Positions 7,838-52,890 of a DNA stretch of 64,000 nt are shown one piece after another. The stretch's first letter is position 1. The number at the start of each line of letters is the position of its first letter. The stretch is taken from NCBI RefSeq assembly GCF_014243345.1, contig NZ_JACLZF010000002.1, forward strand, positions 1,302,001-1,366,000. The letters are read 5' to 3'. Origin of the DNA: Robiginitalea sp. SC105. Lineage in GTDB: Bacteria; Bacteroidota; Bacteroidia; Flavobacteriales; Flavobacteriaceae. A program made the position numbers and the translations under genes. The notes under the pieces are model-generated. The model saw nothing but the letters and a program-made list of their open reading frames with translations. It did no database searches and was not told the DNA's origin.

Positions 7838-7865
7838 GGGTCAGCCAATAAGCTGGCCCTTTTTT
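7838..7865 (+). terminator. Rho-independent terminator after the repeat lipoprotein
   Basis: Stem GGGTCAGC / GCTGGCCC (one G-T pair) with loop CAATAA, followed directly by a run of six T. Confidence 0.85.
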
Positions 7866-7907
7866 CGTTGCATATAAGCAATATTCTTTTAAGAATACTA
7901 GTCAATT

Positions 7908-50329: not shown

Positions 50330-51004
50330 ATGACCAGAAAAGAAAAGGCGGCCTTTGTCGTCGAAACGCTGGAATCGATCTACCCGGAAGTGCCCGTCCC
50401 CCTGGAGCACCAGGATCCGTACACCCTGCTGATTGCGGTGCTGCTCTCGGCCCAGAGTACGGATGTCCGGGTCAACCAGACCACCCCCCTGCTCTTCGGC
50501 CGGGCCGACAATCCCGGGGATATGGTAAAACTGGAAGTGGATGAGATCCGGGAAATCATCCGTCCCGTTGGCTTGTCCCCTACCAAGGCAAAGGCCATCC
50601 GACGGTTGTCGGAAATCCTCCTCAGCGAACACGGCGGGAGGGTGCCCAAGGACATCGAGGCCCTGGAACGCCTGCCCGGCGTGGGCCATAAAACGGCCAG
50701 CGTGGTGGTGTCCCAGGCATTCGGGATCCCGGCATTCCCGGTAGACACCCATATCCACCGGCTGATGTACCGCTGGGGCCTGTCCACCGGCAAAAATGTC
50801 GTACAAACCGAGAAGGATGCCAAGCGGCTGTTCCCCAAAGAGTTATGGAACAAATTGCACCTGCAGATTATCTGGTACGGGAGGGAATACTGCCCGGCAA
50901 GGGGCTGGGACCTGGAACGGGACCCTATTACAAAAAGGATCGGGCGCAAATCGGTGCTCCGCTCCCAGGAAGGCAAAAAAAAGACCCGCCGAAGCGGGTC
51001 CTGA
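50330..51004 (+). CDS. nth: Endonuclease III-type DNA glycosylase without the iron-sulphur loop
   Basis: 224 residues. Base-excision repair of oxidised pyrimidines. Helix-hairpin-helix LERLPGVGHKTASVVVS with catalytic Lys (GHKTA) and Asp in FPVDTHIHRLMYRWG are clear. In E. coli Nth the C-terminus carries C-x6-C-x2-C-x5-C for a 4Fe-4S cluster; here the same place reads GREYCPARGWDLERDP with one Cys only. The same seems to hold for relatives in this phylum (from memory). The last nine residues (KKKTRRSGS) are encoded by the hairpin that acts as a terminator on the other strand. Confidence 0.9.
   Translation: MTRKEKAAFVVETLESIYPEVPVPLEHQDPYTLLIAVLLSAQSTDVRVNQTTPLLFGRADNPGDMVKLEVDEIREIIRPVGLSPTKAKAIRRLSEILLSEHGGRVPKDIEALERLPGVGHKTASVVVSQAFGIPAFPVDTHIHRLMYRWGLSTGKNVVQTEKDAKRLFPKELWNKLHLQIIWYGREYCPARGWDLERDPITKRIGRKSVLRSQEGKKKTRRSGS
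50975..51000 (-). terminator. Rho-independent terminator of the sigma/microprotein unit, inside the end of nth
   Basis: Read on the minus strand: GACCCGC-TTCG-GCGGGTC followed by T8. Perfect 7-bp stem with a UUCG-type tetraloop. It lies within the last codons of nth. Confidence 0.88.
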
Positions 51005-51009
51005 AATTT

Positions 51010-51153
51010 TTAATTCAAATTCGATTCGAATTTGAACCCTTGGTAACCCATCACATGCAGCGATCGGGAATAATGCATCAGAAAGGAAATCGTATCCTTT
51101 TTTACCCGAACGAGCTTACATGCATCGGCCTGTTTTGTGTAAATTTTTTCCAT
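51010..51153 (-). CDS. 47-residue microprotein paired with ECF sigma factor (copy 1)
   Basis: Small gene 73 nt downstream of the sigma gene at 51227 and directly before a terminator. It starts MEKIYTKQADACKLV and ends FKFESNLN. It aligns end to end with the 46-residue protein at 52098: shared CKLV, T-x2-FL, YS-x-SL, G and FE-x-NLN, about 19 identical of 46 positions. No signal peptide or membrane helix; a central amphipathic helix is likely. The conserved pairing with an ECF sigma factor suggests a regulator or partner of that factor, but no function is known to me. Confidence 0.8.
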   Translation of the reverse strand: MEKIYTKQADACKLVRVKKDTISFLMHYSRSLHVMGYQGFKFESNLN

Positions 51154-51226
51154 ATGCTTAGAGTTCGTTACACTGTAATAACGCAACCCTTATGGAAATA
51201 TTGCTCGCCCGTAAAAGTGTGGGATC

Positions 51227-51808
51227 CTAGTTGGTCAGTACTATCTTGTTTTTCTGAATGATCTTGCGGAGATTGATCAGTGCATAGCGCATCCGGCCAA
51301 GGGCCGTGTTGATGCTTACCCCTGTGCACTCGGAGATTTCCTTGAAACTCATATCCTTGTAGATACGCATGATGAGCACCTCCCGCTGGTCGTCCGGCAG
51401 CTCATCGATCAGCAGGCTCAGGTCGCTGTCGATCTGGTCCTTGATCAGTTGTTTTTCGATATTCGGCTTGTCGTCCCCGATCACTGAAAAGATGTTGAAA
51501 TCCTCGCCGCCTTCAAACTTGGGCATGCGTTTGTTCTTCCGGAAATGGTCGATGATCAGGTTGTGGGCAATCCGCATTACCCAGGGCAGGAATTTGCCTT
51601 CCTCGCTGTAGTTGCCACGCTTGAGGGTTTTGATCACCTTAATAAAGGTATCCTGGAAGATATCTTCGGTGACATCCCGATCCAGCACCTTGGAATAGAT
51701 AAAGCTGGTGATGCGTTGGTTGTGCCTGTTTATCAGGATTTCGAGGGAGCGCTCATCACCGCTGATATAATCCCTCACCAGGGCTGAGTCGTCGATCTGT
51801 AGTTCCAT
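51227..51808 (-). CDS. ECF-type RNA polymerase sigma factor (copy 1)
   Basis: 193 residues. Sigma2 region (SLEILINRHNQRITSFIYSK, DIFQDTFIKVIKTLKRG, PWVMRIAHNLIIDHFRK) and sigma4 HTH (LPDDQREVLIMRIYKDMSFK, ISECTGVSINTALGRMRYAL). No anti-sigma factor with a transmembrane segment is next to it; instead a 47-residue protein follows. About 70% identical by eye to the sigma factor at 52309. ATG at 51808. Confidence 0.95.
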   Translation of the reverse strand: MELQIDDSALVRDYISGDERSLEILINRHNQRITSFIYSKVLDRDVTEDIFQDTFIKVIKTLKRGNYSEEGKFLPWVMRIAHNLIIDHFRKNKRMPKFEGGEDFNIFSVIGDDKPNIEKQLIKDQIDSDLSLLIDELPDDQREVLIMRIYKDMSFKEISECTGVSINTALGRMRYALINLRKIIQKNKIVLTN

Positions 51809-52047
51809 AGAGCGTACATTTGGTTTATTTACAGGGCCTTTTGCAGGACATCTGAAAGTTGGTTACCGATTGGGTTTGGGTGTCTGTCTCTCAAACACAT
51901 TTTAAAAGTAGCCAAAGACCCTGCCTGTGGAAAAACTATGTTGTAAAAGGGCGGATTCTTGATGTAAAAGGCGGGATTTGCCGATTTAGCCCCAAAATGT
52001 GCCCCGCTGGAAGTGGTTGGGAAGGTTCCTGTAGGAATATACCTATA
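51809..52047. other. Upstream region of sigma copy 1
   Basis: 239 nt between the copy 2 terminator and sigma copy 1. No gene is seen on either strand that I can support. A minus-strand TACTTTTA (51903-51910) is one mismatch from the -7 consensus and could drive sigma copy 1. Confidence 0.4.
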
Positions 52048-52073
52048 AATAAAAAGGCCCCGGATAGGGGCCC
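52048..52073 (-). terminator. Rho-independent terminator of the copy 2 sigma/microprotein unit
   Basis: Minus strand: GGCCCC-TATCC-GGGGCC followed by T5-A-T3. It separates the two duplicate modules into independent transcripts. Confidence 0.85.
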
Positions 52074-52097
52074 ATTTATATGTGCTATGTTGCGAAT

Positions 52098-52238
52098 CTA
52101 GTTCAGGTTATTCTCAAATTCCATCCCCCGCGAAGAAACGATGGACAGCGATTTGGAATAATCCAGCAGAAAACGCACGGTTTCTTCCGAGGAGGATACG
52201 AGTTTGCAGTTTTGTTTGGCAGGGTAGAGTTGATCCAT
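52098..52238 (-). CDS. 46-residue microprotein paired with ECF sigma factor (copy 2)
   Basis: Small gene 70 nt downstream of the sigma gene at 52309. It starts MDQLYPAKQNCKLVSSSEET and ends GMEFENNLN. Paralogue of the 47-residue protein at 51010. Conserved features are the CKLV segment with its single Cys, the aromatic-Ser element YSKSL, and the C-terminal FENNLN. The gene ends just before a terminator. Sequence conservation across the duplicates, while the spacers differ, argues that the protein is translated and selected. Confidence 0.8.
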   Translation of the reverse strand: MDQLYPAKQNCKLVSSSEETVRFLLDYSKSLSIVSSRGMEFENNLN

Positions 52239-52308
52239 ATATTTCAATGTTTGCTCTAATTAACGCAAACATCCACAAGACAATGGTTTCAACTCGACCT
52301 AAGGCCCA

Positions 52309-52890
52309 TTAATTCGTTAAAACAATGTTGTTCTGCTCGATCAGCTTTCTCAGATTGATCAGCGCATAGCGCATCCGGCCCAGGGCTGTATTGATACTCA
52401 CACCGGTATTCTCAGCTATTTCCTTGAAACTCATGTCCTGGTACATCCGCATCTGGAGCACTACCTGCTGATCTTCGGGCAATTCCGCGATCAGGTCCGA
52501 AATGTCCGATTGGATCTGATCCTGTATCAATTGTTTCTCCGCATTGAGGCGGTCGTCCTGCATGATGGAAAAGATGCTGAATTCCGGGCTGCCTTCATAA
52601 CGCGGCATCCTGTTGCTCTTGCGGTAGTGGTCTATGACCAGGTTGTGCGCTATGCGCATCACCCAGGGCAGGAATTTACCCTCCTCGTTATACTTGCCAA
52701 GTTTCAGGGTCCGGATGACCTTGATAAAGGTATCCTGGAAAAGGTCCTCGGTAATTTCCCGATCGTAGACTTTGGAATATATAAAGGATGAAATCCGCTG
52801 GTTGTGGCGGTTGATTAAAATTTCGAGGGAGCGCTCATCACCGCTCAGATAATTGCGAATCAGGGTAGAATCTTCTGCCTGTAGTTCCAT
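52309..52890 (-). CDS. ECF-type RNA polymerase sigma factor (copy 2)
   Basis: 193 residues from the ATG at 52890 (MELQAEDSTLIRNYLSGDER), chosen because it aligns with the start of copy 1; upstream in-frame starts would add a Pro-rich leader not seen there. Sigma2 (DLFQDTFIKVIRTLKLG, PWVMRIAHNLVIDHYRK) and sigma4 (LPEDQQVVLQMRMYQDMSFK, IAENTGVSINTALGRMRYAL) are intact. The linker differs most from copy 1 (residues about 97-118). Followed by its own microprotein gene. Confidence 0.95.
   Translation of the reverse strand: MELQAEDSTLIRNYLSGDERSLEILINRHNQRISSFIYSKVYDREITEDLFQDTFIKVIRTLKLGKYNEEGKFLPWVMRIAHNLVIDHYRKSNRMPRYEGSPEFSIFSIMQDDRLNAEKQLIQDQIQSDISDLIAELPEDQQVVLQMRMYQDMSFKEIAENTGVSINTALGRMRYALINLRKLIEQNNIVLTN

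Follow-up and report, generated by a model that had tools for sequence, protein, structure and literature searches.

In class-I anti-sigma factors, helix 4, which comes after a three-helix bundle, binds sigma2, and the last helix of the class-II anti-sigma CnrY sits on sigma2 in the same manner (passages of PMC7406223). According to the same passages, a class-I anti-sigma is found nearby for only 6% of the ECF sigma factors of Bacteroidetes, and the group ECF03 is noted as being without one. P. gingivalis possesses SigP, an ECF sigma of 193 aa that controls genes of type IX secretion (T9SS) and to which PorX binds directly (PMC4800418, in part). The sigP gene is described as auto-regulated, and no downstream anti-sigma candidate is named in the passage concerned (PMC7712824). 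One SigP homologue is reported in F. johnsoniae (a passage of PMC10951265). In F. psychrophilum, the promoter type SM6, with its 'CGT' -10 motif, heads T9SS genes and was tentatively ascribed by the authors to a sigma/anti-sigma pair among the SM6 genes (sections of PMC9723704).

A tandem sigma-microprotein locus

The window, that is, the whole stretch of 64,000 nucleotides analysed from Robiginitalea sp. SC105, carries on its minus strand two tandem units (50981-52890), each composed of an ECF sigma gene and an ORF of 46 or 47 codons. Their parts are as follows.

52309-52890, minus strand: ECF sigma-up, 193 aa; Sigma70_r2/r4 and TIGR02937 over cut-off
52294-52300, minus strand: AGGTCGA box in the gap between sigma-up and microprotein-up; present in 21/22 up copies
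52262-52285, minus strand: ECF-like promoter of microprotein-up; CGTT -10 retained, CATTG in the -35 slot
52098-52238, minus strand: microprotein-up, 46 aa, putative reduced anti-sigma; pN/pS and profile matches in relatives
52055-52073, minus strand: terminator-like hairpin 3' of the up unit; consensus match only
51227-51808, minus strand: ECF sigma-down, 193 aa; Sigma70_r2/r4 and TIGR02937 over cut-off
51180-51203, minus strand: promoter of microprotein-down, CAATA-N15-CGTT, ending 26 nt 5' of the ATG
51010-51153, minus strand: microprotein-down, 47 aa, putative reduced anti-sigma; pN/pS and profile matches in relatives
50981-51002, minus strand: terminator-like hairpin 3' of the down unit, overlapping the 3' end of nth; consensus match only

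Both sigma factors are sigma-70 family proteins with regions 2 and 4 only, as defines ECF sigma factors. They share 75% identity over 193 aa, close to the 70% estimated in an initial annotation of this DNA, and the short same-strand genes that it had placed 70-73 nt behind them follow after 70 nt (up) and 73 nt (down). The two microproteins can indeed be aligned, with 41% identity and 19 invariant positions; they are the only matches to the family in their own genome, and no model of Pfam or NCBIfam matched either of them at E<=1. No membrane anti-sigma gene adjoins the two units, just as had been noticed, the neighbours being uvrA (+), nth (+), and bcp (-), named by eye. The initial annotation had also given each unit a terminator of its own. 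The hairpins are present, but four in the region against 2.7 in shuffles is not significant by count alone.

The small ORFs are real protein-coding genes. The pN/pS ratio of the microproteins was 0.348 in frame (281 non-independent pairs, with pN<pS in 276), while the same DNA read in the other two frames gave 0.90 and 1.53. Synonymous-site bias in relatives, which the initial annotation had set as a test, is therefore seen, and on this codon bias a chance ORF or a regulatory RNA was rejected. The idea that the conserved element is a small regulatory RNA or UTR structure instead of a protein draws on an excess of inverted repeats over the -10 box (exact 6-nt arms in 41/197 regions vs 18.5 in shuffles, maximum 30, which kept base composition and not dinucleotides) and on an SM6-promoter transcript of F. 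psychrophilum with conserved structure, named putative regulatory RNA Rfp11 (PMC9723704, Table 2C); against the clear coding signature and a protein tail recognisable across the whole class, we consider it highly improbable. Rfp11 may itself be the mRNA of a microprotein.

In the window, the inverted repeat over the microprotein's -10 box lies at 52247-52272 (-), and relatives have it at the same place. It could mask the start codon in a read-through mRNA, whereas its left arm would be missing from an mRNA begun at the ECF promoter.

Distribution and ancestry of the microprotein

The sigma profile found matches in 223 of the 247 genomes of the class Bacteroidia at E<=1e-35, with one match per genome except for two in each of three genomes (G000, G168, and G287). 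The sigma is thus a near-single-copy, class-wide protein; its best named relatives were mostly Flavobacteriaceae. The profile made from the two microproteins reached 47/60 relatives at E<=1 and 35/60 at E<=1.1e-4 (own genome counted), and a first-pass search of the class with the microprotein profile A2, which is insensitive to diverged forms, reached 66/247 genomes. The microprotein was detected in 65/223 sigma-positive and 1/24 sigma-negative genomes (P 0.007, phylogeny ignored), and T9SS in 218/223 and 19/24 (P 0.001, phylogeny ignored); four of these 24 sigma-negative genomes were assigned by elimination.

Loci fetched by the microprotein are biased, and their counts contain redundant copies of the window (L001-L003), so adjacency was counted in loci fetched by the sigma. 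A small partner gene lay directly 3' of 29 of 31 class-wide sigma genes (L062-L091), the window's own two units included, and 3' of all 90 sigma genes at 80 named, mostly flavobacterial loci. Among the next 100 sigma matches in list order (L172-L271; the count stops short of the remaining 19 on the list and of those not listed), 53 had such a gene, at least 4 of which encode longer forms. In the other 47 no partner was recognised by profile; by eye, nine of them (L186, L221, L222, L246, L247, L251, L266, L268, and L269) have a longer partner that begins like an anti-sigma and measures 72-86 aa, or more in L269. The co-occurrence of the gene pair, proposed earlier as a check, is therefore a class-wide feature.

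The microprotein measures about 47 aa in flavobacterial forms and 44-70 aa elsewhere, where it typically ends in ...P..TI.NILNYSKAL.V.........LN. The family is far wider than is visible from the window. We found no description of it in the papers searched, which agrees with the earlier impression of an undescribed family. In several genomes the microprotein gene is unlinked from any sigma. By eye, four of these unlinked genes (L054, L055, L056, and L058) adjoin nth, as in the window, with bcp also nearby in three of the four, and three others (L052, L045, and L059) lie beside purB-like or fba-like genes.

The ancestry of the microprotein can be followed through longer relatives. In other lineages the partner takes a long form of 72-81 aa (72-86 aa in the nine loci above) with a start resembling class-I anti-sigma domains, and this longer N-terminal start is confined to the long relatives. 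A long-form profile (A4), biased because it includes two intermediates, matched in 69/247 genomes at E<=1e-3, in some of them through larger proteins alone. Fourteen of these larger proteins (L306-L319, 199-357 aa) were inspected, and 12 of them are encoded directly 3' of another ECF sigma. When ten were scanned against Pfam, zf-HC2 exceeded the cut-off in the N-terminal part of L314 and L316 and RskA_C in L315; L312 and L319 had a zf-HC2 match under the cut-off, and the remaining five had neither domain. Moreover, in one family (f17) the partner of the same sigma is a protein of 182-191 aa with a membrane stretch, recognised by eye, in three loci (L302, L303, and L305), and in a fourth (L304) the partner frame stops after 100 codons. 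Another family (f18) supplies six intermediates of about 89 aa, in which the anti-sigma-like start and a NYSKAL-like tail occur together. Since these intermediates carry both parts, the microprotein looks like an anti-sigma cut to helix 4 and the tail.

Profile comparison points the same way. Aligned by hhalign, the long forms and the microproteins (150 distinct sequences from 157 occurrences, mostly flavobacterial, 21 occurrences coming from the class-wide loci L033-L061) matched over 19 columns at the C-terminal helix, with a score of 27.8 and a probability of 84.6%. None of 150 column shuffles reached this score (maximum 15.6); they were run after removal of gap columns, before which 1 of 100 had given an odd score of about 130 (in two comparisons). 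We relied on this comparison because a further set (MID) includes no fewer than 4 long forms that an iterated profile had drawn in, so that its match to the long forms is partly circular. In one comparison the intermediates entered with their last 72 residues only. The long forms match the larger anti-sigmas mainly in the N-terminal part; the helix of the microprotein is thus equated with the classical helix 4 by its position, which in class I follows the three-helix bundle. Judged by such resemblances, the microprotein looks like a class-I-like anti-sigma reduced to the sigma2-binding helix 4 and a tail.

Structure prediction and coevolution gave a less definite picture. A read-through chain of sigma, linker, and microprotein from one locus (L111, 57 rows) was predicted by AlphaFold2 with a pTM of 0.50 as a normal ECF sigma and a microprotein of one helix and a hairpin. 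The microprotein of a close relative modelled alone was given the same helix and hairpin, the block-mean confidence of the helix being 92 alone vs 88 in the chain. The complex structure suggested in the initial annotation thus yielded a predicted shape for the microprotein but no located interface with the sigma, and as proof of contact the AlphaFold2 model is neutral. A fold search with this chain matched the sigma part (residues 4-194) and nothing else, and no PDB entry matched the microprotein profile at E<=10. Across 212 pairs, the 20 strongest couplings averaged 1.386, more than in any of 25 within-clade shuffles (maximum 1.315); the single top coupling was within the range of the shuffles, and the couplings did not localise to sigma2.

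Promoters, duplication, and type IX secretion

Between sigma and microprotein, the motif CAATA-N15-CGTT was perfect in 68 of 91 window and named regions (0.02 in shuffles), and CGTT occurred in all 91 (11.9 in shuffles), its last copy lying 25-44 nt 5' of the ATG in all but three. Class-wide, 43/76 intergenic regions, two of them the window's, had the perfect motif (0.06 in shuffles), as did 36/67 microprotein-fetched regions, window repeats included. It also precedes all 6 intermediates; among 8 unlinked microproteins, two of which are on the list of intermediates as well, it was perfect in 4 and loose in 7 (0.4 in shuffles), and among 26 long forms it was perfect in 6 and loose in 16 (0.9 in shuffles). 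Here and below, the shuffles of promoter regions kept base composition and not dinucleotides. The motif was found within 250 nt 5' of the sigma gene in 0/91 cases; there, the housekeeping element TAnnTTTG was enriched (54/91 vs 15.5 in shuffles). The own genome has 18 matches to CAATA-N15-CGTT vs 9 for a backwards control, which counts against the mechanism proposed below; the 18 include that of microprotein-down and one site 5' of sprA. We infer that the motif is read by the adjacent ECF sigma.

A further perfect CAATA-N15-CGTT lies in the window at 7846-7869 (+) and ends 38 nt before an ORF of 215 aa, which has hydrophobic stretches and no Pfam match over the cut-off. It is possibly another regulon member or a chance occurrence.

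The two units of the window go back to an old event. In the trees (52 sequences, midpoint-rooted), all 19 copies of sigma-down fell into one clade (support 0.82), into which four single-copy sigmas (L094, L097, L103, and L104) also fell, and the microprotein-down copies formed a corresponding clade that included in addition one up copy, L010-up (0.82). The up copies lay outside the down clades without being united in a separate clade. This fits a single ancient duplication of the module, shared by some of the Flavobacteriaceae and lost again in places, rather than a local event. The promoters of the two copies differ: CAATA was present in 21/21 down promoters with a placed CGTT and in 0/22 up promoters, which retained CGTT. 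Of the up copies, 19/22 have AGGTCGA 27-28 nt 5' of CGTT, and two more have AGATCGA there; counted as a box, it occurs in 21/22 up, 0/22 down, and 2/88 single copies, and might bind an activator in lieu of a -35 element. The duplication with differing promoters described in the initial annotation is hence an old one, and its suggestion of two versions with divided tasks gains support from these fixed differences.

These data also bear on whether the microprotein is a mere member of the regulon, an effector acting elsewhere whose place beside the sigma gene is incidental. Unlinked microproteins in several lineages, most of them with the promoter kept, would agree with this. However, the gene adjoins the sigma gene in most loci inspected, its product resembles anti-sigma proteins, and the sigma-down and microprotein-down clades correspond except for L010, although adjacent genes share history anyway. 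We regard this regulon-only reading as quite improbable.

The same promoter type occurs upstream of sprA, a gene of the type IX secretion translocon. Among the best 30 sprA loci, 16 had the perfect motif upstream (0.06 in shuffles). Because it sits inside ruvA, codon usage was tested in the 28 loci with a RuvA site (two of the 30 were without it). The first Ala-Leu (or Thr-Leu) pair of RuvA was encoded with xCGTT in 19/28, against an expectation of 1.33 (P 1.8e-20, treating genomes as independent), and the second pair, three residues on and used as an internal control, in 1/28; CAATA occupied the -35 slot of the site in 18/28. The motif is thus embedded at synonymous sites of ruvA upstream of sprA. 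A second set of sigma-positive genomes behaved alike, with a perfect sprA motif in 9/14 and xCGTT in 10/12 at the first RuvA pair and 0/12 at the second. On the other hand, two of six genomes without detected sigma (G079 and G141) had the perfect sprA motif, and xCGTT was present in all 3 with a readable RuvA site, which weighs against a one-to-one link between sigma and motif. Even at E<=1e-20 the sigma was not matched in these six; another sigma may read the motif, or the sigma gene may lie in an assembly gap. Nevertheless, the shared promoter type in ruvA suggests a probable role of the sigma in type IX secretion, and from its length, copy number, and the sprA motif, the sigma of the window is likely a SigP-type sigma.

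Proposed mechanism and comparison with known systems

Starting from four results of the computation, namely real genes, a class-wide pairing, a chain of homology, and a conserved promoter, we propose that the microprotein is a soluble anti-sigma of the ECF sigma encoded just 5' of its gene. Its ancestor would have been a soluble class-I-like anti-sigma of 72-89 aa which lost the three-helix bundle. The remaining part would consist of the helix-4 segment, binding sigma2 and keeping the sigma off RNA polymerase, and a tail mostly ending in LN. The sigma gene is probably transcribed from a housekeeping promoter, while CAATA-N15-CGTT before the microprotein would be read by the same sigma, so that active sigma would produce its own inhibitor. 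Such homeostatic negative feedback would replace the usual membrane-anchored sensor, and the sigma would probably serve type IX secretion, like SigP in P. gingivalis. We consider this explanation as a whole probable. That the small protein is the partner of the sigma, as the initial annotation held, is well supported by co-occurrence, by the anti-sigma-like longer relatives, and by the shared ECF-type promoter.

The annotation had left the role of the partner among an anti-sigma, a co-activator, and a stabiliser; similarity to anti-sigma-like proteins favours the first and disfavours the other two. ECF systems are commonly built so that the target produces its inhibitor, and this also argues against a microprotein that binds and helps the sigma, as stabiliser, co-activator, or adaptor (e.g., towards PorX), in a feed-forward loop. 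Yet the co-occurrence and promoter data would fit such a helper equally, inhibition may require more than helix 4, sigma4 would possibly stay uncovered without helices 1-3, and direct binding of PorX to SigP is known in P. gingivalis (PMC4800418, in part). On balance, a helping role seems unlikely to us, and the soluble anti-sigma is preferred. Its boldest extension is that a helix-4-only anti-sigma is the missing switch of SigP-type sigmas across Bacteroidia, that activated PorX frees the sigma in a PhyR/NepR-like manner, and that the duplicated pair is split into a self-regulated version (CAATA/CGTT) and one driven by an activator at AGGTCGA; this is speculative and rather doubtful.

If the proposed mechanism is true, a tiny soluble anti-sigma, missed by family libraries, would account for how one near-universal sigma of the class, if not more, is controlled, CAATA-N15-CGTT would be the promoter code for that sigma, and the control of type IX secretion, perhaps also of gliding, would be opened to direct test. 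The living intermediates would show the route by which an anti-sigma shrank to one helix.

Among the known systems, the anti-sigmas of the ASDI type (RseA, RsiW, ChrR, and RskA) are similar in three respects: the microprotein gene also lies 3' of an ECF sigma gene, the long forms share their start with larger proteins encoded 3' of other ECF sigmas, among which zf-HC2 or RskA_C domains occur, and the microprotein aligns to the last, helix-4-like segment of the long forms. In contrast, the microproteins of the window, with 46 and 47 aa, have no three-helix bundle, membrane anchor, or zinc motif. Lacking the N-terminal bundle, they are not filed as ASDI proteins, and would only be derived from one or work like one. 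NepR, from the PhyR-NepR-EcfG system of Alphaproteobacteria, is a small protein and an ECF anti-sigma in a partner switch, and here too the probable sigma, SigP, is bound by a response regulator, PorX; this likeness is one of system design. CnrY of class II has a membrane anchor. Its sigma-binding part is likewise very short, but has two sigma-binding helices (passages of PMC7406223), whereas the model of the microprotein has one helix and a hairpin. EcfO-Reo of Bacteroides/Phocaeicola is also an ECF sigma/anti-sigma pair of Bacteroidota; Reo, however, spans from the cytoplasm to the cell surface, and for this reason a Reo-like membrane anti-sigma was rejected as a candidate (PMC13114119, in part). 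SigP/PorXY resembles the present system in that SigP and the sigmas of the window all have 193 aa, and SigP controls T9SS genes while the promoter type of the partner here precedes sprA. They differ in that sigP of P. gingivalis is described as auto-regulated (a passage of PMC7712824), the motif being found 5' of none of the 91 sigma genes here. Set beside all of these, the microprotein is best described as a reduced, soluble, probable anti-sigma under putative feedback from its own sigma.
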